Origin: Georhizobium profundi
GTDB lineage: Bacteria; Pseudomonadota; Alphaproteobacteria; Rhizobiales; Rhizobiaceae
NCBI RefSeq assembly: GCF_003952725.1
Contig: NZ_CP032509.1
Location: 3,186,001 to 3,250,000 of the forward strand
Reading direction: 5' to 3'
Length of the DNA stretch: 64,000 nt
Below are positions 6,423 through 59,139 of this stretch, one piece after another (the first letter of the stretch is position 1; each line of letters begins with the position of its first letter). The notes under the pieces are model-generated. The model worked only from the letters and a program-made list of their open reading frames with translations, ran no database searches and had not been told where the DNA came from. The translations under genes were made by a program, and so were the position numbers.

Positions 6423-7973
6423 TCAGATGATATCCGCGATCATTGTTTCGGCATCGGCTAACTTCAGCGCGCTTCGCCGTTCGAACGCCTGCTCCTCGGC
6501 CGGCCAATCGCTCCGGAAGTGTCCACCGCGACTTTCCTCGCGCAACAGCGCGCCGAGCGTGACCAGACGTGCGACCGCCAGGCTGTTCTCGATGCTGTCA
6601 CCGCCGCGCATCGTAGCCATGGCTCTCAGCGCACCCGTCAGGCCGGCGGACTCGCGCAGCACGCCGACATTGCGGTTCATGATGTCGCGGAGATCGGCCA
6701 TGATCCGCCGATCGGCTTCGTGGTCGTCCGCCGACGCACCCTCTTCCACGATCGGTTCGGCCGGCGCGCCCCCGGCATTGCCGGACGCGATCGACAGGGC
6801 GATCCGCGCTGCGAAGACCACCGCTTCCAGAAGCGAGTTTGAGGCCAGCCGGTTGGCCCCATGCACACCGGTACAGGCGGCTTCTCCGGCCGCGTAGAGA
6901 CCTGTCAGAGACGTGCGACCATCCGCATCGGTCCAGATGCCGCCCATGTGATAGTGGGCGGCGGGCGCGACCGGAATGGGCGCCGTCACCGGATCGATGC
7001 CGGCCTCCATGCAGTGCCGATAGACCGTCGGGAACATCTGAGGAAAATGATCGCCGATGGCCTGCCGGCAATCGAGAAAGGCGCCCCTGCCCGCCTGGAT
7101 CTCGGCGAAGATGCCGCGGGCGACGATATCGCGCGGGGCGAGTTCCGCATCCGGGTGGATCGCCTGCATGAACCGGTCGCCGGCACGGTTGATCAACGTC
7201 GCGCCATCGCCGCGCAGGGCTTCGGTCGCAAGCGGCGCAGGATCGCGGCTAACATCGAGCGCGGTCGGGTGAAACTGCACGAATTCCGCATCGGCAATCA
7301 CCGCGCCGGCGCGCGCCGCCATGCCGGTGCCGGTTCCCGAGGCCTCCGAAGGATTGGTCGTGAGCCGATAGAGGTGGCCGATGCCACCGGTGCAGATGGC
7401 AACGGCACGCGCAGGAAATCTCAGCCGCGCACCCTGCCCGCGATCGGCATGGGCGACGACCCCGCAGACGGCACCATCTTCCACGAGAAGCCGCTCGGCC
7501 TGAAGGTTTTCGATCACGGTGATCGACGGCGTGCGCCTCACTGCAGCGATCAACGCCTCCATGATCGCACGGCCCGCCATGTCGCCACCGACGCGCACGA
7601 TCCTGCGCTGGGAATGGGCCGCCTCGCGGGAAAGCGCCAGCCGCCCTTCCAGATCGCGGTCGAATGGCACGCCATAGGCGAGCAGGTCGTGCACGCGCTC
7701 CGGGCCCTCCCGCACCATCAGACGCGCCATGTCGACATCGACGATCCCGGCACCGGCGGCAATCGTATCAGCCAGATGCTCCTCGGCACTGTCCTCGTCG
7801 CTGACGGCAGCGGCGATGCCGCCTTGCGCCCAGGCGGACGATGCTCCCTCACCGATCGGTGCTGATGCCAGCACCGTCACGGGACGCGGGCTCAGCTTCA
7901 GAGCGCAAAAGAGCCCGGCGAGGCCGCCGCCGATGATGACGATGCCGCCCTTTTCCACTCGGTTGGTACTCAT
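6423..7973 (-). CDS. nadB: L-aspartate oxidase
   Basis: FAD enzyme of 516 residues that oxidises aspartate to iminoaspartate, the substrate of NadA. It has the N-terminal dinucleotide-binding GGGLAGL, the family motif [12 protein letters not shown], and the succinate-dehydrogenase-like HPTAL and [13 protein letters not shown] segments. Length is normal. In many alphaproteobacteria nadA, nadB and nadC are contiguous. Here an oppositely oriented LysM gene begins about 77 bases upstream, so nadBC need their own promoter or antisense read-through from nadA. No copy of the nadA palindrome is seen in front of it. Confidence 0.97.
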
Positions 7974-8050
7974 GCGGTGACACCGGGCACAGCAAGTGTA
8001 TCGCCAAGCCGTGATTGGACGATGGGCAGGTGAGCACCTATCTTCATGGG

Positions 8051-8620
8051 ATGAGCATTCTGAACAAACCGATGATGCGGCCGGTCAACAGGAGAATCGG
8101 CGGGGCCTTCGTCGCCGCCGCGATGGTTTTCAGCGCCGCGCCTCTTCCAGGCTTCGGCACCGATGCACTCGCCCAATGCACTGCGCGAACCCAGACGGGG
8201 GTCGGCACCAACGCGGTTGCGCTTGCGCAGCGCTGCGGCACGACGGTCGGCGATCTGCGCCGCGCCAATCCGGGGCGCGATCTCAATCAACCGGGCCTGC
8301 TTCGCATCCCCGGCGGTCGCACGAGTGCCGTTCCCGATTCTCTGAACAACGAGATCGCGCCGCGCCAAGGCCTCAACGCCACGCGCCAGGCGCCCGTCGT
8401 GCAGCCGTCGCCGACGTTCCGTCAGCCGGGCGAAGCGCCGATGCGCCGCAGCAGTCCCGATGCTGGCGGCAATGGCAGCTACGCGATCCGGCGCGGCGAT
8501 ACGTTGAGCGGCATCGCCGCATCGGCCGGCGTTCCCTTGAACGCCCTGATGCGGGCCAATCCCGGCATTCAGCCGAACCGGCTGTCCGTCGGCCAAGCGA
8601 TCGTCATCCCGGCGAGCTAG
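8051..8620 (+). CDS. Secreted LysM-domain protein
   Basis: Protein of 189 residues. A signal-like N terminus (hydrophobic stretch about 15-30, end near DALAQ) precedes a degenerate LysM-like unit ([18 protein letters not shown]) and a clear C-terminal LysM domain ([14 protein letters not shown] to [10 protein letters not shown]). LysM binds peptidoglycan N-acetylglucosamine, so it probably acts in the periplasm or envelope; no catalytic domain is present. The start is uncertain: ATG at 8051 is chosen, while in-frame GTG 8030 and TTG 8015 would add residues, and none has a strong Shine-Dalgarno. It lies between nadA and nadB on the opposite strand. Confidence 0.75.
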
Positions 8621-8687: not shown

Positions 8688-9767
8688 TCAGCTGACGAGA
8701 TCGATCATGCGCTCGACGGCAAGGCGTGCGCGAGCGGCTATGACAGGATCCACGGTCACTTCCTCGCGCATGTCGACGAGGCAATCGAGGATCTTCGGCA
8801 GCGTGATGCGCTTCATGTGCGGGCACAGATTGCACGGCTTGACGAATTCGACCCCCGGCACCTCGGCCTCGACATTGGATGCCATCGAGCATTCGGTCAC
8901 AAGCAGTACGCGGCCGGGCAGATTGGTCTTGACGTAATCGATCATGCCCGAGGTCGAACCGGCGAAGTCGGCAACGGCGATGACGTCTGGATGGCATTCA
9001 GGGTGCGCGATGATCTGGATCGACGGATCGGCCTCGCGATAGGCGATCAGTTCTTCCGCCGAGAAGCGCTCATGCACCTCGCAGCGACCTTTCCACGTGA
9101 TGATCTTCTTCTTGGTCTGCTTGGCGACGTTCATCGCCAGATATTCGTCGGGAATGCAGAGAACCGTATCGGACTCCAGGCTCTCGACGACCGCGAGGAC
9201 GTTCGAGGAGGTGCAGCAGATGTCGGTCTCGGCCTTCACGTCGGCAGAGGTGTTCACGTAGGTGACGACCGGCACGCCAGGGTACCGCTCCTTCAGCAGG
9301 CGCACATCGGCGCCCGTGATGGACTCCGACAGCGAGCACCCTGCACGCATGTCCGGGATCAGCACCGTCTTTTCCGGATTGAGCAGCTTCGACGTCTCGG
9401 CCATGAAATGCACGCCGCACTGGACGATGATCTCGGCATCCACCTTCGCCGCCTCGCGCGCCAATTGCAGGCTGTCACCGACGATATCGGCCACGCAGTG
9501 GAAGATCTCCGGCGTCTGGTAGTTGTGGGCCAGGATGACTGCGCCGCGTTCGGCCTTCAGGCGATTGATGGCGTAGACATAGGGCGCGTGGATCGGCCAC
9601 TCGATGGCCGGGATGTGGTGGTTCACCCGGTCGTACAGATGCTCCGTCGCTCTCGCGACTTCCGGCGTGAAGGCGAGCGACGGGCGCTCGGCGACGCCGA
9701 ACCGCTCGGCTGCAGTCGTCGGAAATCCGTCCGTCTTGATGGCGAGTGCTGCGGGTGACATGGGCAC
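8688..9767 (-). CDS. nadA: Quinolinate synthase
   Basis: [4Fe-4S] enzyme of 359 residues that condenses iminoaspartate with dihydroxyacetone phosphate to quinolinate. The cluster Cys candidates are in [18 protein letters not shown] and the C-terminal CNLCPHMKR. Motifs AHNYQTPEI and AHPECHPDV are typical of the family. It faces the LysM gene convergently at its 3' end. A perfect 17-bp palindrome lies 24 bases upstream of its ATG, the expected place for a repressor operator. Confidence 0.97.
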
Positions 9768-10045: not shown

Positions 10046-11287
10046 ATGAGCGACCAAGCCAAGAGCGCGGTGCACAAGCCAGCCGCATTCCCTTGGCTGA
10101 TCATCGCCTCCGGCTGCCTGATCGCCATGATCGGCTTCGGTCCCCGCTCCGTCATGGGCTTTTTCCAGTTGCCCATGCTGCAGGACACCGGCTGGGATCG
10201 AACCACCTTCGGTCTTGCCATGGCGCTGCAGAACCTCTTTTGGGGATTGGGCCAGCCCTTCTTCGGCGCGATCGCCGATAAATACGGCACGTGGCGCGTG
10301 CTGCTCCTTTCCGCGATTCTCTACGCTCTCGGGCTCGTCACCATGGCGACGGCCGATGCGCCGGTCTGGCTGCATATCGGCGGCGGCGTGCTCGTCGGCC
10401 TTGCGGTAGCGGCCGGCTCGTTCGGCGTCATCCTCGCCGCGTTCGCCCGCAATGTGGAACCGCAACAGCGTTCCTTCGCGTTCGGACTCGGCACTGCGGC
10501 CGGTTCGGCCGGCATGTTCGTCTTCGCCCCGATCAGCCAGGGCCTGATCGATTCGCTCGGATGGTCCGACGCGCTGGTGGTGCTGGCGATCATCATGCTC
10601 GCCATTCCCGTGCTTGCCGTGCCGCTACGCGGAAACTCCTCGTCGGGCTCGCAAAAGCAGACTGATGTCGACCAGTCGATCGCCGCCGCTCTGCGCGAGG
10701 CGTTCGGGCACCAGAGCTATCTGCTCTTGACCGCCGGTTTTTTTGTCTGCGGTTTCCAGGTCGCGTTCATTACCGCGCATTTCCCAGCCTATATCGGGGA
10801 TATCGGCGTCGATGCGTCCTACGCCGTAACGGCCATCGCCCTCATCGGCTTTTTCAACATCATCGGCTCGATCGCCTCCGGCATCATCGGCCAGCGCTAT
10901 TCCAAGCCGATCTTCCTGGCGCTGATCTACATCGGCCGGTCGATCGCGGTCACCGCGTTCCTGTTGCTGCCCCAGACGGGCTTTTCAGTGATTGTCTTCT
11001 CGATCGTGATGGGGCTGTTGTGGCTTTCCACCGTGCCCCCGACGAATTCGCTGGTCGCGATCATGTTCGGCACGCGCTATCTCGGCATGCTCGGCGGCAT
11101 CGTATTCTTTTCGCACCAGATCGGCTCGTTCCTCGGCGTCTGGCTGGGCGGTTATCTCTATGACCGCTTCGGCACCTACGATCCGGTTTGGTGGCTCGGC
11201 GTCGCGCTCGGCCTTTTCGCAGCCGTGGTCCATCTGCCGATTGCCGAAAAGCCTGTGGCACGGCCGGTGCTCGCGCCGGCCGAATAG
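10046..11287 (+). CDS. MFS transporter
   Basis: Major facilitator superfamily permease of 413 residues with about 12 hydrophobic segments, a cytoplasmic loop near 205-220 and the loop 2-3 signature GAIADKYGTWR at about 75-85. It resembles the OFA/monocarboxylate branch, but the substrate cannot be read from sequence. The ATG has GGAG six bases upstream. The gene ends six bases before the converging HprK-PqqD gene. The 278-bp region upstream is shared with nadA. Confidence 0.85.
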   Translation: MSDQAKSAVHKPAAFPWLIIASGCLIAMIGFGPRSVMGFFQLPMLQDTGWDRTTFGLAMALQNLFWGLGQPFFGAIADKYGTWRVLLLSAILYALGLVTMATADAPVWLHIGGGVLVGLAVAAGSFGVILAAFARNVEPQQRSFAFGLGTAAGSAGMFVFAPISQGLIDSLGWSDALVVLAIIMLAIPVLAVPLRGNSSSGSQKQTDVDQSIAAALREAFGHQSYLLLTAGFFVCGFQVAFITAHFPAYIGDIGVDASYAVTAIALIGFFNIIGSIASGIIGQRYSKPIFLALIYIGRSIAVTAFLLLPQTGFSVIVFSIVMGLLWLSTVPPTNSLVAIMFGTRYLGMLGGIVFFSHQIGSFLGVWLGGYLYDRFGTYDPVWWLGVALGLFAAVVHLPIAEKPVARPVLAPAE

Positions 11288-11293
11288 GCGTCG

Positions 11294-12523
11294 TCACGCA
11301 CTGACGGCAAGCGGCGGCTCTAGCACGGCAAGACCGGATTTCAGAAACCTGTCGACGGCTGCGGCGAGATCTGCGCGCAGTTGCGCCTCTGGCGTATCAG
11401 GGAACGCTTCCTGGAAGATATCGACGATCGTCTCGACATCGAGCGGTTTGGCAATGAGGTTCCAGAGCGCCAAGCCGACCTGGTTGAGGTGGTGGATGTC
11501 GTTGCTGTCGAGGTCGACGAGGAAGGCCGCTTGGCCCACGACCCGTGCCACCACATGGGGCGCGCGTGCGATCAGCGCCTGACCCGGCTTCGGCGCAAAA
11601 GCGAAATCATCATCGTCTGCGTCTTCATCCGGCTCCGCCGCGCGCGCGATCTGCAAAGCGCGTTGCTCTTGTTCTGGCCAGGAGGCGAAATTTGCCTGGA
11701 GGCAGGTGACCGCGTCGTCCACACGGCTGTAGACCAGACGATAGATGCCGATCGTGCCGACAAGCGCGAGATAGCGGTCGAGGGTCCAGGTGCCGAGACC
11801 GTTTTTCGTGTCCTGCAGCAGCACACGCAACAGGGCCTCGTCGGGTTCGATTGCTTCGATAGATGGCGTGATGTCGCCTTCGCGGCGGTCGAGCAGCACG
11901 AGTGCGCCGAGTTTCGACCGGTCGCCATGGGCAACCGCGAGCTGCGCATCGGCCGCCGGGAGATAGGTGTAGTAGCCGTCGTTCAGCAGGGCATTGGCGG
12001 CGACGTGGATCTTCAGTGTGTCAGGCGCGCTTTCCGGCAGCGGCAGGCGCAGGCGCGGAAGGCAGCCCGATGCGATCGCCTCGAGACGCACGAGGTCTAT
12101 GGGCAGAAGATCGTCGGCGAAAACGCGATGCCCATGAGAGGCGAGAGCCCCTACGAGGGTCGATTTTCCCGCGCGGTTCGTGGCCGGGAAAACCACCAGC
12201 CTGTCCGCGAACTCGACGGCTCCGGCATGCAGGTTGCCGAGGCTGTCGTCGCCATCCACGAAGTCGGCCATCAGTTCGACGATCAGCGAACAAATGGCGC
12301 TTGTGGGTGACGGTTCGATCCGCGGCGTATCCATATAGCGATGGTTGAGAAGAACCGCGTCGGGAGTGCCGGAAACAGTCATCAACGGCTCGCGCGACGA
12401 AAGCTCATCGCACGCGACTTCCGGCCACCCAACCAGCACGCGCTTCACATCGTCGGCGACGAATTCAAGAGGCGAAGCGAACTCGATCGGTCCCGGCAGA
12501 CCCTTCAGACAGAGTGAGCGCAC
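11294..12523 (-). CDS. HprK-related kinase fused to a PqqD-like peptide-binding domain
   Basis: Protein of 409 residues with two parts. Residues about 95-310 resemble HPr kinase: a Walker A at PATNRAGKST (Lys120, Ser121) and the downstream GHRVFADD (Asp137, Asp138), matching the HprK ADD motif. Residues about 320-405 are PqqD-like (FLVDLDSNDIHHLNQVGLALW, then a helical end). PqqD domains bind leader peptides in peptide-modification systems, and HprK homologues phosphorylate the C-terminal Ser of some lasso precursors. GTG 12523 is chosen because GGAGG lies six bases upstream; a TTG at 12535 overlaps that site. It follows the Gly/Ser-rich gene on the same strand. Confidence 0.8.
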   Translation of the reverse strand: MRSLCLKGLPGPIEFASPLEFVADDVKRVLVGWPEVACDELSSREPLMTVSGTPDAVLLNHRYMDTPRIEPSPTSAICSLIVELMADFVDGDDSLGNLHAGAVEFADRLVVFPATNRAGKSTLVGALASHGHRVFADDLLPIDLVRLEAIASGCLPRLRLPLPESAPDTLKIHVAANALLNDGYYTYLPAADAQLAVAHGDRSKLGALVLLDRREGDITPSIEAIEPDEALLRVLLQDTKNGLGTWTLDRYLALVGTIGIYRLVYSRVDDAVTCLQANFASWPEQEQRALQIARAAEPDEDADDDDFAFAPKPGQALIARAPHVVARVVGQAAFLVDLDSNDIHHLNQVGLALWNLIAKPLDVETIVDIFQEAFPDTPEAQLRADLAAAVDRFLKSGLAVLEPPLAVSA

Positions 12524-12560
12524 CGCGACCTCCAAAACTGCATGTACATTAGCATAAGCG

Positions 12561-12587
12561 AAAAAGCGTCGCCCGAACAGGCGACGC
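12561..12587 (-). terminator. Intrinsic terminator between the Gly/Ser-rich gene and the kinase gene
   Basis: Minus strand: GCGTCGCC, loop TGTTCG, GGCGACGC, then TTTTT. The 8-bp stem is perfect. It begins 20 bases after the Gly/Ser-rich gene stop and ends 38 bases before the kinase start, so the kinase would be expressed only by read-through or from a separate promoter. Confidence 0.85.
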
Positions 12588-12606
12588 CTCCTTCATTCTG
12601 GAAAAC

Positions 12607-12981
12607 TTACCAGCGCATATCGTCGCGCATGCCGCGGAAGAAGCCACCGAGATTCTGCGGACCACGACGGCCCGACCCGCTGCGGCCACCCCAGTTGCCA
12701 CGGCCGCCAGAGCCACGCGATCCGCGGGAACCGCCACGTCCACCAGAACCGCCACGTCCACCCGAACCGCCGCGGCCACCAGAGCCACCGCCCGAACCAC
12801 CGCCCGAGCCACCGCCTGAACCGCCAGAGGCGCGTGCTTCACGGATGCTCAGAAGTGTTGGTGCGACGTAAGCGGCAGCAGCGGTGAGGCCGAGCATTGC
12901 GAGCATTTTCCGGCGGCCGACATTGGGCTGATCGTCTTCGACCGCTGCAGCAACCTTGCCATTCGTGTTTTGATCCGACAT
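12607..12981 (-). CDS. Small Gly/Ser/Arg-rich exported protein with Tat-like leader
   Basis: Protein of 124 residues with unusual composition. Residues 1-51 form a leader with twin arginine (VGRRKMLAML, Arg23-Arg24), a hydrophobic stretch to about 45 and an Ala-Arg-Ala cleavage site (49-51). The mature part (52-124) is low-complexity: five Ser-Gly2-3 units, then Arg-Gly-Gly-Ser-Gly-Gly repeats, then an Arg/Trp-rich tail ending FFRGMRDDMRW. It holds about 12 serines. The second of two close ATGs (12981) is chosen because AGGAG is six bases upstream. No known family was recognised. A terminator and the HprK-PqqD gene follow, suggesting a substrate-modifier pair. Confidence 0.75.
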   Translation of the reverse strand: MSDQNTNGKVAAAVEDDQPNVGRRKMLAMLGLTAAAAYVAPTLLSIREARASGGSGGGSGGGSGGGSGGRGGSGGRGGSGGRGGSRGSRGSGGRGNWGGRSGSGRRGPQNLGGFFRGMRDDMRW

Positions 12982-13170: not shown

Positions 13171-13917
13171 TCAGTCCGACGGGTTTGCCGCGCGCGCTGC
13201 CTTCAATGCGGCCTGGATGAACCCCTCGCGCGCCTCGGGCGGCTTCAGCCTGCGCGGCCCGTAAATGTCGCGATCGAGGAAATACCCCGTCATTCGAAAT
13301 GCTTCGGCGAGCGTGACCTCATCGGCTGCCGCAGCGCCCTGCCGTGCGAGAAAATCCGGGTAGGAAAACAGGCGGTCCGCCCAGCCCTGCCCGACCGTGC
13401 GCGACACGGCGCGGCCGGTCTTCGGCGATACGAATGCGAGGTCGGCAGTCGTTCCGGTGACCGCGCAAGCCGAGAGATCGAGGCCAAAGCCCAGCTCGTC
13501 CAGCATGGCCAGCTCGAACCGGGCAAAGAGCTCGCCCGCTTCGTGCGGCGCATGCAGGCTGTCGAGAATGATGTCGAGCGCGTTGTAAAGCCGCAGATGC
13601 GGGTCACGCTCGGGAAGTAGGCGCAACAGCGCAGCCATCGCCTGGACGCCGTATACGGATGTCGCCGATTCCATCAGCCGCGCCGCCCTCAGCGACACGG
13701 GCTCTACCTGAAACTGGCCGAGATGCTCGTCGAGGCGCGCGCGCCAGGTCACTTCGACGCGGTTGCCTGGCTGCAGCACGGGCTGCATGCGCCTGGACCG
13801 ACCGCCGCGCACCATGCCGAGATGACGGCCACGCGTCTGCGTCATCACCTCGGCAATGACACTCGTCTCACCGTGCCGGCGCACGCCCAGAACGATGGCC
13901 TGATCCTGCCACTCCAT
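13171..13917 (-). CDS. recO: DNA repair protein RecO
   Basis: Recombination mediator that helps load RecA through the RecFOR pathway, 248 residues. The N-terminal OB fold opens [17 protein letters not shown] and continues with [12 protein letters not shown]; the C-terminal helical part follows ([17 protein letters not shown]). It is the last gene of the acpS-lepB-rnc-era-recO series, 67 bases after era. The 189-bp gap after it carries a 6-bp GC hairpin at 13086-13103 and presumably the promoter of the Gly/Ser-rich gene. Confidence 0.95.
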
Positions 13918-50227: not shown

Positions 50228-51643
50228 CTAGAGAAACTTGGAGAGAGCGGCGAAATCGACGGAGGCGACACCAAAATTGGCCGCTTCCAGTTCGCGCAGG
50301 CGTCTTTCGGTCACGGCGATCGAATGATCGAGTTGCTCGAACGTATGGTCGCTGGTGATGAAGAAGCGTAGACGCGCCTGCCCTTCCGGAACGGCAGGGT
50401 GAATGATCGGAAGCACGTTCACGCCATCGGCGATCAAATCGTTGGATAGCCGCGCGGCGCGCACGCTGTCGCCCACCATGATCGGCACGACCGAGTAGCC
50501 AACGCTGAGCCCCGTATCCAGGCCAGCCCGAGTCGCTGCTTCCACGAAGTATTGTCCGTTGCGCTTGAGCTTTTCGACACGCTCCGGCTCGTCGCACAGT
50601 GCTTCCAGGCTTGCGCTTGCTGCCGCCGCAAGCACCGGAGCCAGACCGACGCTGTAGACGAAGCCACCGGCAGACGCCTTCAGCACATCGATGAGAGCGC
50701 TCGTCCCGGCCACGTAGCCGCCGCAGGACGACGTCGTCTTGGACAGCGTTCCCATGCGAATGTCTACGTCTTCCGGCGCAATGCCGAAATGCTCCATCGT
50801 GCCGAAGCCGCGCTGGCCGAGGACGCCAAGCGAATGCGCTTCGTCGACCATCAGCCAGAAGCCGTAGTCATGCTTCAGCTTTACCAGACCCGGCAGGTCG
50901 GCGATGTCGCCGTCCATCGAATAGACGCCTTCGACGATGACCATCGTGCGGCGATATTCGCCGGCGGTCGCCATCAGAAGCTCTTCGAGGTTTTTCAGAT
51001 CGTTGTGCTTGAAGAACCGCCGCGTGGCGCCCGAGAGGCGGATGCCGGAGACGGCGCTGTTGTGGATCAGCTCGTCATGGATGACGAGATCGTTCGGACC
51101 AAGCAGAGCGCTGATCACGGCAACGTTCGTGAGATAGCCGCTGACGAAGGTAACGGCCGCCTCCACGTCGTAAATGCGGGCGATCTGCTGCTCCAGCTGC
51201 GTATGGATCGGGCGCTCGCCACCGACCAGACGGCTGGCGGAAGCCGAGATCGCGTAGCGATCGATCGCGGCCTTGGCGGCTTCCATGACCTTCGGATGCC
51301 GGTTGAGCCCCAGATAATCATAGGACGCGAAATTGATCAGGTCCTGGCCGTCGATGCGCGTCGTGGCGCCGGCCGAGCCTTCATGCGCCCGGTAGAACGG
51401 ATTGCCCATGCCGAGCTGCTCGCCTGCCGAGCGCTGGGCCACGACCTGCTTGTACTCCGGAAGATCCTCGAAGGCCGGCGTCGCCCGCAGGCTGCGGCTG
51501 ACGGCCGCCCGCCTCGTCGATCTGTCGAAGCGGTCGGGTGCAGCCGCACTGCTGCTCTTGCGCATGTAATCGAGCACACTGGAGCGAACGGCACGACCGG
51601 TGGAGTTTCCGGTGCCGTTCGCCGACTTGGAGTCTTCACTCAT
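50228..51643 (-). CDS. rkpG: Alpha-oxoamine synthase-like acyltransferase, RkpG-like
   Basis: PLP enzyme of 471 residues in the family of 8-amino-7-oxononanoate synthase and serine palmitoyltransferase. The Schiff-base Lys302 is in GTLSKTTSSCGGYVAG and the cofactor Asp267 in VDEAHSLGVLG. About 60 extra N-terminal residues precede the fold. From family knowledge, RkpG works with RkpA in K-antigen capsule synthesis. It starts two bases after the rkpA stop. It could condense the RkpA acyl chain with an amino acid into an amino-ketone lipid; this is inference. Confidence 0.85.
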   Translation of the reverse strand: MSEDSKSANGTGNSTGRAVRSSVLDYMRKSSSAAAPDRFDRSTRRAAVSRSLRATPAFEDLPEYKQVVAQRSAGEQLGMGNPFYRAHEGSAGATTRIDGQDLINFASYDYLGLNRHPKVMEAAKAAIDRYAISASASRLVGGERPIHTQLEQQIARIYDVEAAVTFVSGYLTNVAVISALLGPNDLVIHDELIHNSAVSGIRLSGATRRFFKHNDLKNLEELLMATAGEYRRTMVIVEGVYSMDGDIADLPGLVKLKHDYGFWLMVDEAHSLGVLGQRGFGTMEHFGIAPEDVDIRMGTLSKTTSSCGGYVAGTSALIDVLKASAGGFVYSVGLAPVLAAAASASLEALCDEPERVEKLKRNGQYFVEAATRAGLDTGLSVGYSVVPIMVGDSVRAARLSNDLIADGVNVLPIIHPAVPEGQARLRFFITSDHTFEQLDHSIAVTERRLRELEAANFGVASVDFAALSKFL

Positions 51644-51645
51644 TC

Positions 51646-54600
51646 CTAGGGCGTCCCTGCCTGACGATTCTCGATGTGCTTCTGGGCCAGCGAACCGACA
51701 AGCCCCGCACCTTCCGGTGCCGGCTGCTCCTCGGCATCATCCGCGCCAGCGGCCTTTTGCACCCGATCATAGAGTTTGACCGCGATATCGCCGACCGTCG
51801 TCGTGTCCGACACGCCGCTCAGCGGCATCTCGAAACCCGTGCGCTTCTGGAAGCCCAATCCCACCTCGATCGCCATCAGACTATCGAGACCGATTTCCTT
51901 CAAGACACGGTTGCGTGAGATGCTGTCGATCGGAATGCGCAGGATGCCCGCGATCTCGCCAGCGATCAGATCGTAAAGGATCTGCTGGGCGTCATCGGAG
52001 GACTTGCCGGCGATCATCGCCACGAGATCGATCTCGCCACCATCGGCCGCCAGCGCCGACTGATCGACGGAACGCAGCACCGTTTCGAAAAGCGGCGTTT
52101 TCGACAGGGCAAGGTTGTGCGCGGTTGCCCAGTCGATCTGCGAGATCATCACGGCAGCCGCATCGACCGTCCCCGGGTCCTGCGCGACGTAGTTGGCAAC
52201 GAGTTCCAGGGCTTCGTGCGACGCAAGCGCGCTGTCACCGATGCGCTTGGCGAGCAATTCGCCGACCGCCTCGTTCTTCGACAGGAAGCCCACATCGCCG
52301 ATCGCGCCGAAGCCGATCGCCAGCGCCGGCAAGCTTTCCGCGCGTCGGGCGCGAGCGAGCCCTTCGAGGAAGCCGTTGGCTGCCACGTAGTTCGCCTGGC
52401 CGGGATTGCCGATCAGCGTCGTTGCCGACGAGAAGAGGATGAAATGATCGAGATCGTCGACCCGCGTCAGCCGGTCGAGGTTGGAGGCACCCAGTGCCTT
52501 AACCTCGATCACCGGGCGGTTGCGGCTGGGCGTCAGGTTCGAAATCAACGCGTCGTCCAGAACCATGGCGGCATGGACAACCGTTTTCAAAGGTGCGTCG
52601 CGACGCAGGCGCTGCAACAGATGATCGACCTGCGCCTCATCGGTGACGTCGCATGCATGGACGCTCGCCGTGACGCCCTTTTCGGCCCAGGCGGCGATGG
52701 CCGCTTCCGTTTCCTGATCCGCACGACCGCCACGCGAGCAGAGCGCGATCTTCTTGGCGCCCATGTCGACCAGCCACGAGGCTGCCGCAAGGCCAAAGCC
52801 GCCGATGCCGCCGACGACCAGATGGATGCCGCGCGGATCGACCGACATCTTGGCACCGGATGCCCGGCGCACTTCGTCGACGCCCGATGCGGGCGGCGTG
52901 ATGACGATCTTGCCGATGTGGCCGGAGCCCTGCATGAGGCGGAACGCACCGCGGATCTCATCGAAAGCGAACTGCCGGTAGGGCAGCGCGGTGAAATCGC
53001 CGCGTGCGAAGAACACTGAGAGATCTTTGAACAGCCGCCGCGTCAGCTCGGGCTTCGCCACCAGCAGCTGGTCGGCATCGATCCCGAAATAGCTGACATT
53101 GCGACGGAAAGGCCGCAGCCCGATCTTGCTGTCGGCATAGTAGTCGCGCTTGCCGAGCTCCAGGAAACGGCCGAACGGCCTCACGAGGCCAATGGAGAGT
53201 TCCATCGCGTCGCCGAAGAGCGAGTTGAGGACGACGTCGACGCCTTCACCACCGGTCGCCTCAAGCACTTCGTCGACAAAGTTCAGCGACCGGGAGTCGA
53301 ATACGGCATCGACGCCCAGCATTTCCAGATATCGGCGCTTTTCGACCGTGCCGGCGGTTGCGAACACGCGCGCGCCCTGCTGTTTGGCGACCTGCAGGGC
53401 AGCAAGGCCCACGCCGCCGGCTCCGCCATGGATCAGCACGGTTTCGCCTGGCTGCAGACGGCCAAGCTCGACAAGGCTGTAATAGGCCGTCAGGAACGCC
53501 ACCGGCAGCGTCGCTCCCGAGACGATGTCGATCTCGGGTGGCAGGGGTGCAACGCCGGCGGCATCGACCACCATCTGCGTCGAGAACGCAGCCGGGCCGA
53601 TGGCCATCACCGCATCTCCAGGCGCGAAGCCTTCAACTTCAGCCCCTACGGCAGCAATGCGGCCGGAGCACTCCATGCCGATCGTGGCGCCGGCAAAGCC
53701 GTCTTCGAGCGCCTCTTCCGGCAAGAGACCCATGCCCCACATGACGTCTCGGAAATTGAGGCCGGTTGCGGCGACGTCGACGACGACTTCACGCGGTCCG
53801 GGGATCTTCTCGTGCGCGACCTCTTCCCAAACGATGCTGCCGAGCTGCGAAGCAACCAGCTGACGGATCGTTGCACCAGCGAAAGAGCGGGTGCGGGAGA
53901 CGTCGGACGTCACCGGGCCCTGTACGGCGCGCAGGCGGCTGAAGGCACCCGTGGTCGCGTCCAGAACAAACTCGCGATCCTGGCCTTTGCCATCAAGCTT
54001 CGATGTGATCGACTCTGCCAGCGCGTCGTCGATTTTGGCGCCGTCGGTATCGAAACTGGTCACGTCGATGAAGCTGTATTCGTTCTTCAGAACGCGCAGG
54101 AAGGTCCAGATGCCGCTATTGGATGCGGAGAACGCATCCTGGCCAGACTTACCACCGGGCGCACCGCCCGGCATGACGACAGCGAGACGCGGCGCGGGCG
54201 TGATCCCCTCGCCGCCCAGCCGTGCAAAAGCTTCGGCCACAGCGCTCAGATAAGTGGTGTGACGAAGAAGCGTCTCGGATCCCGCCTCGGTGATTTCTTT
54301 CGAGCAGAGATAGAGAAGCGCTCTGCCCTGTTCGACGGCAGCGGTCACGGCTTGATCAACCAGCGCGATGTCATCGTCCAGCTCGCCCGTCAGCACATGG
54401 AGCGAGCCCGAGCCGAAAGACCGCGCTGCCTCTTTTGCTTCTGCGCCCGCCACGATGATCGGGGCGCCTGCATCAGCAGCCGGTACCGAGGCCATGGCGT
54501 CTGCGGCATCGGAGACTTGACCCTGAACCGCCAGAACGGGCCCTGAACCAGGCTGCAGCGTTTCGACTTGCGCACTGGGCAGGCCCGCAAGCTTGAACAG

Positions 54601-57600
54601 CCGCTGCCAGTCTTCGCTTCCACCGTAGCGGCCGACCGGGAACAGCGGGTCCTGGCTGCCGGCGAACCAATCGTCGCTCAGACCGAAGACGAAATCGACC
54701 AGCGCGTGCGGTGCGTCGCTCATGAACAGCAGACGCGCGTCTTGGCGCAGCGCGGATTTCAGCCGCTGTCGGTACTCGGCGCTGTTCTCCAGCAGGCCGT
54801 ACAGCGCGTTCGACGCGCTGACCACGATGTCGAAGCCGGCATCGGACGCGAGCGCCTGCGGCTCGATCACGTCGACGCGCGGCTCCTTCTCGAACTCGAT
54901 TTCCAGGCGGCGACGGGCGCCATCGCGGCCTTCGGCTACCACCAGGCTGCCACCATGGCGACGAACGAGATCGGCCATGCGGCGGCTAAGCGCGGTGGAA
55001 ACACTTTCCAGTTCCAGCACGCACAACTGACCGGAGGGACGCGTCGTTGCGGCTTCCAGCGATGCCGCCAGGGCGTCGATCAATGCAGCTGAGCGGAACT
55101 GGGCGCCGCCACCATGCATGTCGTAGTGCGACCGGGTGGCTTCTGCGATGAAGCTGCCATTGAGTTCGGCGATGTCGGCGCCGGCAGCGAGGCTGTCCAG
55201 CCGGTAGATGGTTTCGCGATAGGCGTCGTTGACCAGAACGGCTTCGACCGCGCGGGCCGGATCGCCTCTGACGACATCGGCCAGGATCTGGTCGAGTGGC
55301 GGCAATTCGCAATCGGGCTCGATCACCCAGCCGCGCTCGGAATTGCGGGCGAGATCGGCCTGCTCGAGAATGAACAGGCAATAGGCCAGATGGCTGCGCA
55401 GCCCGGCGTTTTCGGGCAGGCTATGCGGCATGACCAGATGGCGCGGATCGGCAAGCCGAACGGCAATATCATGACACGCGCGATAGATCGCAGCCTTCAG
55501 CATGATGGTCGTGTCGTTCTCGCCGATCGTGACGGCTGCCGGTGCGAGCGTGCCGACACGATCGTTGGCGAGTGGACCCGCAACGATGGCGGGCAGCGCC
55601 TGGTAGTGGAACGAGGTGTCGTAAAGGGTGCGATGCTGGCGCAGATAGGTGCGGCGGAACCGGCAGTCGGATGCATCCGCGATGGCGTTGCCGGCTTTAT
55701 CGAAGAATGTGAAGGAGGCGCGGATCGAGTGTTCCGATACACGGTCGATGTCGATGCGCGCCCCAGCCAGCTCGGCATCGGGCTTCAGCAGACGGATACG
55801 GCCGAAACGGACCGGGATGTAGGGTGCGCCGCCGAGAGCGCCGGTATATTCGCCGAACAGCGCCACGAGACCGTGGAAAGCCGCATCGACGGAAACCGGG
55901 TTAAGCCCGTAGCTGACATAGCGATGGGCAGGCTTCGCCGCAGCCACCAGGGTCGCAACGATGACGTTGCCCTCGAAGAGCTCGGCTCGCTTCATGAGCT
56001 GGAAGCTCGGACCGTAATCGAGGCCAAAGCGTTTTGCGGTCTTGTAGGCGTCAGCCGCCGTAAAGGTGCGCAGCGGACTGCCTTTTGGCCTTTGCGTTGC
56101 CGTCTTGATCGCACCGTCGCGCAGCGCCCGGCCGCGGGCGACCGCATGCAGCGTCCAGTCGTCATCGCTCAGACGTTCGCGCGAGCGTATTTCGATATCA
56201 CCGGTTTCCGGCGAGATCACGGTGGAAAGCTCGGTCAGCGTCGTCGCCTGCAGTTCCAGCGGCCGCATGATTTCGAGATTGGTGACCTCGACCGTATCGG
56301 TCGCATGGTACTGGCGCAGTGCGCTCAGCGCGATCTCGATAAAGCCGCTACCCGGCAGGATAGGCTTGCCGTCGACCACGTGCTCGGCAAGGTCGGGGAA
56401 GAGATGCCGGTCGACATGGTTCTTCCAATGGCCGCTCAGCGGATCGACGCGCCAGCCGGCAAGCGTGTAGGGCTCGTCGACATCGCGGCCGTAAAGGGCA
56501 ACCGCATCGCTTGTCCGGGCAGGTTTGACGATCGCCTTCTCGAACGGCAAGGACGGCAGTCGCACGAATGCGTTGCGCTCGCCAAGACATGCTTTCGCGT
56601 CGAAGGCAGCGCCATGGGCGATGGCGCGCGACAGCGAGCGTCCGACCGGATCGCCATTCTGGCCGATCGGCTCCTTGGCGAGCGTCGCGATGGCAACACC
56701 GGGGATGCCGCGCGCCTTGACGGCATCGCGCAGATAGGCCGCAAGAACCGGGCGCGGGCCGATCTCGATGAAGACCGTGCAACCCTGCTCGATGGCGGCT
56801 TCCACGCCCGACTGGAACAGCACCGGCTCGCGCACATTGCGCCACCAATAGGAGCTGTCGAGCGCCTTGCCATCGAGCTTGGCGCCGGTGACGGTCGAGA
56901 TGAAATCCACCTCCGTCGGCCGAAGCGAAATCTGCGTCAGATCGGCGAGGAACGCCTCCTGCGCCATGTCGATCATTGGGTGGTGGAAGGGATAATTGAT
57001 GTCGAGAACCGATGCCGGGATCTTGCGCGCACGCGCAGCGTCGCGGAACGCTTCGATCTCGTCTGCCGGGCCGGTCATGGTGACCGAGTTCTGGGCATTG
57101 AAAGCACCGACGCACAGGGCATCCAGGCCTTCGGCCTTAGCAAGATCCATCGCGTCATTCGCCGACAGCATGACGGCCGCCATCTTCCCGAAACCGGCAA
57201 GGCGATCCTGATGAAACGAGCGCTTGGCGACGATCGAAACGGCATCGACGAGCTGAATGGCGCCGGAGGCATAGGCAGCCGCAACTTCGCCGACCGAGTG
57301 GCCAAGAACTGCGGACGGCTTGACGCCAAGCTTGACCAGCGTATCGGCAAGCGCCGCCTGAACGGCAAACAGCAGGGGCTGTGCAATCTTGGTATCAGCA
57401 AGCCTTGCGCCAAGATCTTCGGCGAAGAGCAGGTCTGAGAGAACAACATCGGCATGCAACTGGAAAAGCGCGCTGATTGCCGTGAAGCGTTGCCGGAAAT
57501 GGATGTTCTGCTTGAAGGCGTCGATCCCCATGCCGGCCCATTGCGAGCCGTTGCCGGAGAACACGAATGCGACCTTGCCCTCGGCCAGCGGCGCATCCGC

Positions 57601-59139
57601 CACTTCGGCGGCACCAGGCCGATCGTTCAGATATTCGTCGATGGCATGGACGATGGCGTCGGGCTCGCTCGTGTTGACGACGAAACGGCTCTTCAGCATC
57701 GTGCGGTTCGCGCCGGCGGCAGCGGCGACGTTCTGCCGCTGCGTCTTGCTGCCCTTGGACAGCATGTCCCGGTAGGAGCTCAGGAGGTTGTCGAGGCTGG
57801 ATGTCGTCTGTGCAGATGCCACGAAGACGCCCCTGCCCGGTACAGCGTCCGGCCGCGGCTGGTCGTTCGCCGGATCGGAGATGACGATGTGGGCATTGGC
57901 GCCACCAAACCCGAAAGAATTGACCCCGGCGTAACGCCGACGTGTGCTTTTCAAAAGCTCGATCGGTTCGGACGCGACGCGGACATTCAACGCATCGAAA
58001 TCGATATTTTCATTCGGCACTTCGAAATGCAGTGATGCCGGCACGTAGTTGTGCTCGAGCGCGAGCACCGCCTTCATGAGGCCGAGCACACCCGATGCCG
58101 GCTCCGTATGGCCGATATTCGACTTGATCGAACCGACGGGAAGCGGAGCACTGCGCTTCTGGCCGATTTCCGTGCCGATGGACCACAGCTCAGCCGGATC
58201 GCCGACCTTGGTGCCGGTCCCGTGCCCCTCGACGAAGGCCAGCTGGCCGACATCGACGCCGTTCTCGCCATAGATCGAGCGCAGCAGCGCCGCCTGCGAG
58301 TTACGCGACGGCAGAGAGATGCCGTTGGTGCGACCGGCGGAATTCGTAGCGGATGCAACGATCGTCGCGTAGCTGCGGTCACGCTCCTTGATCGCCCGAT
58401 CGGTGCGACGCAGCACGAAGACCGCTCCACCCTCGGAGCGAACATAACCGATACCGCGGTCGTCATAGGCGCGGCACAGCCCATCGGGCGAGAGCATGCG
58501 CGCCTGGGCAAAGCCGACGAAGGGCAAAGGATGGGCAAGAATGCTGACGCCGCCAACGATGGCGGTATCGATCACACCGGCTTCCAGCGACTTCACCGCC
58601 TGATCGAGCGCAATCAGAGAGGACGAGCAAGCGGTATCAACGGTGAGGCTCGGCCCGCGCAGGCCGAAGATATGAGAGACGCGGTTAGAGACGACCGAGA
58701 GCGTGTTGCCGCTCATGAAATACGGACCGCCGGCGGCCGGATCTTCGGACAGAAGATTGGCGTGGTCGAGGCTGGATGCCCCTACATAGACGCCGATGTT
58801 CTCTCCGCGGATCGATGCGTGGTCGATGCTCGCATCTTCCAGAGCGCGCCATGCCAGTTCCAGAACAAGCCGCTGCTGCGGGTCGAGATGCATTGCCTCG
58901 CGCTGCGACATGCCGAAGACGTTGGCGTCGAACGCATAGAGGTCGCCGATCACGCCGGCCGCAAAAGTATAGGTCTTTCCAGCAGTTCCGATCTGCGGAT
59001 GCCAGTAGCGAGCATGATCCCAACGGTCGTGCGGAATCTCCGTCACCGTGCAGCGCCGGTTCTTCAGAAGATCGAACAGCTCTTCCGGGTTGCCCGCTCC
59101 AGGAACGACACAAGCGCGGCCAATTATTTCTACTGTCAT
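51646..59139 (-). CDS. rkpA: Multidomain fatty-acid/polyketide synthase, RkpA-like
   Basis: 2497 residues, a single fully reducing module. Ketosynthase with Cys171, His306, His344; acyltransferase with Ser615 (GHSVGE); dehydratase with His920 (HVVDGKPILP) and Asp1085; a degenerate methyltransferase-like region (about 1290-1520); enoylreductase (GGAGGVG near 1904); ketoreductase (GGIGGFG near 2110); acyl carrier domain with pantetheine Ser2420 (GLDSLMAIE). No thioesterase. Size and domain order match Sinorhizobium RkpA, which makes a lipid needed for K-antigen capsule. The product is expected to be a saturated chain, passed to RkpG. Confidence 0.9.
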   Translation of the reverse strand: MTVEIIGRACVVPGAGNPEELFDLLKNRRCTVTEIPHDRWDHARYWHPQIGTAGKTYTFAAGVIGDLYAFDANVFGMSQREAMHLDPQQRLVLELAWRALEDASIDHASIRGENIGVYVGASSLDHANLLSEDPAAGGPYFMSGNTLSVVSNRVSHIFGLRGPSLTVDTACSSSLIALDQAVKSLEAGVIDTAIVGGVSILAHPLPFVGFAQARMLSPDGLCRAYDDRGIGYVRSEGGAVFVLRRTDRAIKERDRSYATIVASATNSAGRTNGISLPSRNSQAALLRSIYGENGVDVGQLAFVEGHGTGTKVGDPAELWSIGTEIGQKRSAPLPVGSIKSNIGHTEPASGVLGLMKAVLALEHNYVPASLHFEVPNENIDFDALNVRVASEPIELLKSTRRRYAGVNSFGFGGANAHIVISDPANDQPRPDAVPGRGVFVASAQTTSSLDNLLSSYRDMLSKGSKTQRQNVAAAAGANRTMLKSRFVVNTSEPDAIVHAIDEYLNDRPGAAEVADAPLAEGKVAFVFSGNGSQWAGMGIDAFKQNIHFRQRFTAISALFQLHADVVLSDLLFAEDLGARLADTKIAQPLLFAVQAALADTLVKLGVKPSAVLGHSVGEVAAAYASGAIQLVDAVSIVAKRSFHQDRLAGFGKMAAVMLSANDAMDLAKAEGLDALCVGAFNAQNSVTMTGPADEIEAFRDAARARKIPASVLDINYPFHHPMIDMAQEAFLADLTQISLRPTEVDFISTVTGAKLDGKALDSSYWWRNVREPVLFQSGVEAAIEQGCTVFIEIGPRPVLAAYLRDAVKARGIPGVAIATLAKEPIGQNGDPVGRSLSRAIAHGAAFDAKACLGERNAFVRLPSLPFEKAIVKPARTSDAVALYGRDVDEPYTLAGWRVDPLSGHWKNHVDRHLFPDLAEHVVDGKPILPGSGFIEIALSALRQYHATDTVEVTNLEIMRPLELQATTLTELSTVISPETGDIEIRSRERLSDDDWTLHAVARGRALRDGAIKTATQRPKGSPLRTFTAADAYKTAKRFGLDYGPSFQLMKRAELFEGNVIVATLVAAAKPAHRYVSYGLNPVSVDAAFHGLVALFGEYTGALGGAPYIPVRFGRIRLLKPDAELAGARIDIDRVSEHSIRASFTFFDKAGNAIADASDCRFRRTYLRQHRTLYDTSFHYQALPAIVAGPLANDRVGTLAPAAVTIGENDTTIMLKAAIYRACHDIAVRLADPRHLVMPHSLPENAGLRSHLAYCLFILEQADLARNSERGWVIEPDCELPPLDQILADVVRGDPARAVEAVLVNDAYRETIYRLDSLAAGADIAELNGSFIAEATRSHYDMHGGGAQFRSAALIDALAASLEAATTRPSGQLCVLELESVSTALSRRMADLVRRHGGSLVVAEGRDGARRRLEIEFEKEPRVDVIEPQALASDAGFDIVVSASNALYGLLENSAEYRQRLKSALRQDARLLFMSDAPHALVDFVFGLSDDWFAGSQDPLFPVGRYGGSEDWQRLFKLAGLPSAQVETLQPGSGPVLAVQGQVSDAADAMASVPAADAGAPIIVAGAEAKEAARSFGSGSLHVLTGELDDDIALVDQAVTAAVEQGRALLYLCSKEITEAGSETLLRHTTYLSAVAEAFARLGGEGITPAPRLAVVMPGGAPGGKSGQDAFSASNSGIWTFLRVLKNEYSFIDVTSFDTDGAKIDDALAESITSKLDGKGQDREFVLDATTGAFSRLRAVQGPVTSDVSRTRSFAGATIRQLVASQLGSIVWEEVAHEKIPGPREVVVDVAATGLNFRDVMWGMGLLPEEALEDGFAGATIGMECSGRIAAVGAEVEGFAPGDAVMAIGPAAFSTQMVVDAAGVAPLPPEIDIVSGATLPVAFLTAYYSLVELGRLQPGETVLIHGGAGGVGLAALQVAKQQGARVFATAGTVEKRRYLEMLGVDAVFDSRSLNFVDEVLEATGGEGVDVVLNSLFGDAMELSIGLVRPFGRFLELGKRDYYADSKIGLRPFRRNVSYFGIDADQLLVAKPELTRRLFKDLSVFFARGDFTALPYRQFAFDEIRGAFRLMQGSGHIGKIVITPPASGVDEVRRASGAKMSVDPRGIHLVVGGIGGFGLAAASWLVDMGAKKIALCSRGGRADQETEAAIAAWAEKGVTASVHACDVTDEAQVDHLLQRLRRDAPLKTVVHAAMVLDDALISNLTPSRNRPVIEVKALGASNLDRLTRVDDLDHFILFSSATTLIGNPGQANYVAANGFLEGLARARRAESLPALAIGFGAIGDVGFLSKNEAVGELLAKRIGDSALASHEALELVANYVAQDPGTVDAAAVMISQIDWATAHNLALSKTPLFETVLRSVDQSALAADGGEIDLVAMIAGKSSDDAQQILYDLIAGEIAGILRIPIDSISRNRVLKEIGLDSLMAIEVGLGFQKRTGFEMPLSGVSDTTTVGDIAVKLYDRVQKAAGADDAEEQPAPEGAGLVGSLAQKHIENRQAGTP

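Follow-up and report, generated by a model that had tools for sequence, protein, structure and literature searches.

Organization of the Locus

We analyzed a two-gene locus in a 64,000-nucleotide stretch of the Georhizobium profundi chromosome sequence (NZ_CP032509.1, positions 3,186,001 to 3,250,000; hereafter the window). Gene A encodes a protein of 124 amino acids (aa) with a twin-arginine translocation (Tat)-type leader and a Gly/Ser/Arg core, and gene B encodes an HprK-fold kinase fused to a PqqD-family RRE domain (RRE, recognition element of RiPPs, the ribosomally synthesized and posttranslationally modified peptides). Considering the gene structure, the conserved pairing, the leader motif, the RRE type, the kinase fold, and the conserved residues together, we proposed that A and B probably form a RiPP-like cassette for secretory phosphorylation, minimal and linear in its design. 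As annotated in the window, the two genes are co-directional and are flanked by recO and a convergent major facilitator superfamily (MFS) transporter gene (table 1).

The preliminary description of this DNA had proposed a Tat-type leader before a Gly/Ser/Arg-rich protein of 124 residues, followed by a gene fusing an HPr-kinase-like to a PqqD-like domain, and both gene structures were borne out. Protein A carries its twin arginine at residues 23–24 and an ARA at the leader end, and its 73-residue core contains 36 Gly, 12 Ser, 12 Arg, no Thr, and, by reading, no Cys. With its hydrophobic stretch and AxA site, protein A has the pattern of a Tat substrate, as judged from sequence pattern alone. 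The Tyr of its YxxPxL motif lies 15 residues past the first Arg of the RR pair, and core serines stand at Tyr+14, +17, and +21. The C-terminal serine, known as a phosphosite from some lasso precursors, was ruled out for protein A, the last residue of which is Trp.

The hairpin between the two genes was found in the same place in the window genome (G000) and in both congeners, G001 and G002 (z −3.72, −5.49, and −3.65, respectively), and one pair of its stem, as read from the letters, is T-A in the first two genomes but C-G in G002. A consensus promoter/terminator scanner listed no terminator between A and B, and indeed nothing at all; a partial terminator at this place would yield substrate in excess of enzyme. 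Homologues of gene B were found in Georhizobium sp. MAB10 (93%) and Rhizobium albus (94%).

Table 1. Features of the A–B Locus (Positions Refer to the Window)
Feature	Position	Strand	Remark
Gene A, precursor/substrate protein, 124 aa	12607..12981	-	Tat-type leader + Gly/Ser/Arg core
Leader of protein A, residues 1–51	12829..12981	-	RR at 23–24, ARA at end; cleavage site predicted from the AxA pattern
YVAPTL (YxxPxL motif), residues 38–43	12853..12870	-	Meaning of the motif after PMC13381572 and PMC10368454
Core of protein A, residues 52–124	12610..12828	-	
Intergenic hairpin + T run (A–B)	12561..12589	-	Possible attenuating terminator
Gene B, HprK-fold kinase fused to RRE/PqqD domain	11294..12535	-	413 aa from TTG; 409 aa from GTG at 12523
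Walker A region PATNRAGKSTL, residues 117–127 of protein B	12155..12187	-	
D141–D142 of protein B	12110..12115	-	Alignment of 30 fused rows
RRE (PqqD-family) domain, residues 320–408 of protein B	11312..11578	-	Includes N351 and D389
recO	13171-13917	-	Neighbour of gene A
MFS transporter gene	10046-11287	+	Convergent neighbour of gene B

The Kinase and RRE Domains of Protein B

The kinase half of protein B is a P-loop kinase of the HprK/PEPCK type, as indicated by the fold and by its His, GKS, and DD residues, of which D141–D142 are identical in all 30 fused rows of the alignment. Its best NCBIfam match was TIGR04352 (HprK-related kinase A) at 41.9 bits, which falls far below the curated cut-off of 200 bits for membership in that family, and a phmmer search of the PDB with protein B alone gave no matches.

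To place the PqqD-like domain, an RRE profile built from nine unfused family members was searched against PDB chains, which matched TbiB1 (2.2e-11), 9x8z chain B (8.7e-7), TfuB1 (4.5e-5), and 9x90 chain B (9.6e-4). Chains of the PQQ type ranked lower than unrelated chains, at E 0.026 and 0.04, and a PQQ-type function was rejected. The domain is thus of the lasso type, nearest to TbiB1, TfuB1, and LppB. LppB is the RRE of the Linear Polyphosphorylated Peptides (LPPs) of Bacillota, reported in 2026 (PMC13381572), in which phosphorylation of LppA Ser3 requires the kinase LppK and LppB binds the YxxP leader. The 9x8z chain B fits LppB in our identification, its residue numbers minus an 18-residue offset matching N33, D70, and F74. 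LppB forms a hydrogen bond to the leader Tyr through D70, and its N33 holds the kink at the Pro in place (PMC13381572); in the printed alignment, N33 shares its column with Asn351 of protein B and D70 with Asp389. Among the fused RREs, Asp389 was kept in 30/30 rows and Asn351 in 25/30, and the position of LppB F74 is Leu in 19/30 rows and Ala in the window protein.

Conservation of the Leader

From the loci and from six database proteins we collected 68 distinct parsed leader matches and retained 66 after excluding two that were weak; two more frames were truncated and could not be parsed. Tyr (never Phe or Trp) and Pro of YxxP were present in 66/66 leaders, counts that lean upward because the parse demanded an aromatic residue three before Pro. 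Relative to the motif Tyr, Leu at −11 was found in 66/66, Gly at −7 in 63/66, and RR at −15/−14 in 65/66 leaders, rows that are not independent because several come from congeners and three are orthologous subtilases. Thus, YxxPx[LIVM] lies at a near-constant distance from the twin arginine, within the Tat-type hydrophobic stretch, with an AxA-like site at about Tyr+13 or +14. The proposal that the PqqD fold serves as leader recognizer gained from both sides, since the PqqD-like domain proved to be a lasso-type RRE and YxxP, present in the leader, is the motif that matches it. The preliminary description contained neither this motif nor the LPPs of Bacillota, which operate in this manner.

Pairing of Leader Genes with the Kinase

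Conserved adjacency in relatives had been set beforehand as a test of the pairing. Nine of 100 relatives had a kinase match, with a leader gene within about 1.5 kb in six of them (G000, G001, G002, G033, G075, and G095); it lies downstream of the kinase gene in G075, and kinase and RRE are separate genes in G095. No leader gene was seen within about 1.5 kb in G061 (stop-broken), G069, or G094 (weak kinase matches). Scanning of named genomes yielded 14 loci, and in 13 of them, all of which encode kinase and RRE as one chain, the leader gene lay directly upstream of the kinase gene. These include Rhizobium albus (congener G001 counted again), Pararhizobium, Rhodobacter, Tabrizicola, other metagenome-assembled genomes, and Halomonas, with the leader found in Halomonas denitrificans; the fourteenth locus, a weak match (E 5e-5) in a Mucilaginibacter stretch, was without a leader. 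The adjacency is therefore conserved, and co-occurrence extends to genomes in which the genes are not adjacent.

In particular, among 385 genomes of the class, the kinase–RRE model (E <=1e-15) was found in 44, the leader (E <=1e-5) in 35, and both in 33. Most seeds of the leader model were kinase-adjacent leaders of these same genomes; the 19 genomes with adjacent genes were therefore set aside, and of the 16 genomes with a non-adjacent leader 14 had the kinase, versus 25/366 (Fisher 7e-17). In these 14 the leader gene lay 25–119 kb off (eight) or on another contig (six). Among 299 genomes of the phylum, the leader (E <=1e-6) was found in four, two of which, both f232, are outside the class and have a fused kinase–RRE gene adjoining.

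A reading of 12 non-adjacent leader loci, from G474 and 11 of the 14 genomes, revealed nearby hldE-type motifs in 8/12 and MmcB-like ones in 9/12, one locus having been scanned with Pfam/NCBIfam. The leader genes of L070, L075, L077, L079, L081, L084, L088, and L089 are near such hldE-/MmcB-type genes, some also near a tetratricopeptide repeat (TPR)-methyltransferase, and their cores are mostly short with P-S/T-x-C.

Diversity of the Cores

The cores were highly variable among leader genes. Gly/Ser/Arg cores were found in the window, L004, and L094, and Ser/Arg/Pro repeat cores in L020, L090, and L091; a further class is short, with P-S/T-x-C. A Cys lying four or more residues inside the core occurs in 36 rows; the position two residues ahead of this Cys is Ser in 26 of them and Thr in four, and three of the remaining six are the subtilases. 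By our own count, 15 rows have the Cys at Tyr+21, with Tyr+19 being Ser in 11 and Thr in four. By our arithmetic, this is the spacing of BsfA, in which phospho-Ser3 and Tyr −17 correspond to Tyr+19, and LppA (Ser3, Tyr −16) has one less; BsfK tolerates Thr at the BsfA phosphosite (PMC10368454).

The substrate core at L006:773-1090, adjoining separate kinase and RRE genes, consists mostly of SR/SK dipeptide repeats. In L095–L104, a Ser-rich stretch is followed by a conserved PSTCSGPTDDDAGC-type motif at the core end. At L052:9214-11010, a cluster shared with L054 and L055 (three genomes, one genus), a TPR protein with a match to PRMT_C (arginine methyltransferase) adjoins a kinase whose substrate is Ser- and Pro-rich with some Arg.

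Proposed Mechanism and Alternatives

We proposed the following order of events, which is modeled from sequence. While still cytoplasmic, protein A would be bound through the YxxPxL of its Tat-type signal by the C-terminal RRE of protein B, and its Gly/Ser/Arg core would thereby be placed close to the fused kinase, which would phosphorylate one or more core serines (Ser/Thr in the cassette family). The Tat route transports finished, folded cargo, and modified protein A may exit by it; signal peptidase I would then cleave after ARA, to give a phosphorylated, otherwise basic low-complexity protein. The pairing, the motif, and the RRE type thus lend in silico support to the earlier idea of a phospho-peptide modification cassette with recognition and kinase functions on one chain.

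Several observations weigh against this mechanism. In the YxxPxL of BsfA, Ala substitution of Tyr or of Leu, or of two or three motif residues together, had no effect on phosphorylation, and a Pro variant precipitated (PMC10368454); therefore, YxxP need not guide the kinase. The S3T variant of LppA was not phosphorylated by LppK (PMC13381572), so that the exchange of Ser and Thr in the cores is no sure sign of phosphorylation. Neither Tyr+18 nor Tyr+19, the positions modified in LppA and BsfA, is a Ser in the core of protein A, and protein B lacks the two leading P-loop glycines present in the BsfK set. By reading, the Asn varies in unfused RREs (kept in 5/9, with Asp kept in 8/9). A model of the leader with the kinase–RRE chain (predicted local distance difference test about 50) showed a helix at 15–41 and a short strand at 50–53 after YxxP, and neither showed nor excluded docking. 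In addition, G213 and G474 have a leader without a recognizable full kinase (at E <=1e-3, none in G474 and a 50-residue match alone in G213), and 11 of the 44 kinase genomes lack a strong leader, a relaxed search giving weak matches there (best E 0.002). On account of the BsfA alanine changes and of a chain model undecided on docking, we hold the secretory phosphorylation cassette, a reading from sequence, to be no more than probable.

The non-adjacent leader genes and an unlinked subtilase led us to a broader proposal, which we hold tentatively and with less than even confidence: the Tat/YxxP leader may be a portable tag, such that one RRE–kinase phosphorylates every exported protein bearing it, wherever encoded, before export, with the subtilase as a second client. 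This 417-aa protein (PF00082; G000 C1:1807860-1809110, L092:1474-2727) lies outside the window and matched the leader model at E 7.7e-9, its leader being followed by the Ser/Gly-rich stretch SDGSAGSAGSGSGSG. Orthologues are present in both congeners (97% and 92%). The leader was not seen at the other homologous subtilase N-termini printed in the comparison, and the G033 homologue, about 1.4 kb from its cassette, is without it. The subtilase is possibly a second substrate or a processing protease.

Among the alternatives, we gave a low probability to phosphorylation as an intermediate, in which phospho-Ser would receive a further decoration, such as a transferred nucleotidyl group, or, where the core has a Cys, undergo elimination and coupling to it. 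PF14907 (NTP_transf_5) was present in 30/38 cassette genomes versus 2/14 controls, and a PF14907-bearing cluster, two members of which were scanned, adjoins the RRE gene in 7/21 loci, the context of which showed nothing else that recurred widely; the P-S/T-x-C of many cores would also suit this alternative, as would a later role speculated for LppN (PMC13381572). However, deletion of lppN had no effect in a heterologous host (PMC13381572), no lyase gene was seen adjoining the cassette, gene A has no Cys, and PF14907 had no match in G000, G001, G002, G033, G258, G375, G406, or G521.

Slightly less probable still is a regulatory kinase, which would bind the export signal to delay or time export and phosphorylate either the leader or a different protein. 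RRE binding would mask the export signal because the motif sits within the Tat-type h-region, and five unfused kinase genes (L029, L034, L035, L037, and L039) adjoin an ActR/RegA-type redox response regulator, as called from a 308-bit match in L034 and from sequence motifs in the others. Nevertheless, the leaders have no invariant Ser/Thr position, yet every short core has Ser/Thr, and the known homologues phosphorylate cores (PMC10368454, PMC13381572).

A relic of a lasso-peptide cluster that lost its cyclase and peptidase is very improbable: the RRE type, the YxxPxL motif, and the kinase also occur in lasso clusters, but the cores are long and of low complexity, the pair is maintained across many families, and the lasso B2 peptidase PF13471 was found in 5/38 cassette genomes and in none of G000–G002 and G033. 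Finally, Tat substrates with low-complexity tails exist, but an ordinary exported envelope protein beside an unrelated kinase by chance is contradicted by the conserved adjacency and by the co-occurrence in non-adjacent genomes, and we gave it almost no weight.

Other Features of the Window

Elsewhere in the window, a 2497-aa polyketide synthase-like protein (51646-59139, minus strand) has ketosynthase, acyltransferase, dehydratase, zinc dehydrogenase, and KR (ketoreductase) matches, accompanied by an aminotransferase gene (50228-51643, minus strand). A small LysM-domain protein (8015-8620, plus strand) lies between nadA (8688-9767, minus strand) and a flavin adenine dinucleotide (FAD)-binding gene (6423-7973, minus strand), which is probably nadB.

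Comparison with Known Systems

Paeninodin is reportedly a phosphorylated lasso peptide. The BsfA/BsfK/BsfB1 system of this kind consists of precursor, kinase, and RRE, the last of which accelerates the phosphorylation of BsfA by BsfK (PMC10368454). It shares with the cassette an RRE-aided HprK-type kinase, a YxxPxL leader, and overlapping catalytic residues. The cassette differs in its Tat-type leader, in having no lasso-like core, no B2 peptidase in the genome, and no cyclase seen alongside: no macrolactam (asparagine-synthetase-like) cyclase was found among eight scanned neighbours, no genome-wide search having been made. The identity of a lasso peptide was rejected, since the window genome has no PF13471 match. 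Likewise, SpI-like peptidase and MsbA-like transporter genes were absent from the immediate neighbours (the MFS transporter gene and recO), with no genome search for these families. With neither PF14907 nor PF13471 in its genome, the window therefore carries a pared-down form that consists of the substrate and a single fused enzyme.

DUF2282 precursors, associated with DUF2063 RREs (PMC12710340), are also RiPP-like and carry an export signal, but theirs is a Sec-dependent signal followed by a variable leader, and that paper mentions no kinase. Within the open-access literature, with subscription papers outside the search, no description of a Tat-leader kinase–RRE variant was found.

The LPPs are closest. 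They share with the cassette a linear precursor, a YxxPx leader, a variable core, an HprK-like kinase (by fold and residues in protein B), and a lasso-type RRE, and with 30/38 cassette genomes the NTP (nucleoside triphosphate) transferase family. Unlike LPPs, the window cassette has a Tat-type leader, kinase and RRE on one chain, a long Gly/Ser/Arg core, and a proteobacterial host. We did not file the cassette as an LPP because its RRE is not discrete, although type and key residues fit; because its leader has only YxxPx[LIVM] in common with the consensus YxxPxVLxHQxIxFETxxS; and because the window genome has no NTP transferase. We nonetheless suggest that it works like LPPs, since counterparts of the YxxP precursor, the lasso-type RRE, and the HprK-type kinase are all present, and it appears to be a new branch in the biosynthesis of phosphorylated peptides. 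If so, phosphate-type RiPPs would extend beyond the LPPs of Bacillota and some lasso groups to a leader system in 35/385 class genomes and Halomonas denitrificans, in which the export signal doubles as an RRE-binding leader, and in which the two-gene, single-enzyme pair would allow direct assays of how a leader is read and how the kinase acts on a Ser-rich protein of low complexity.
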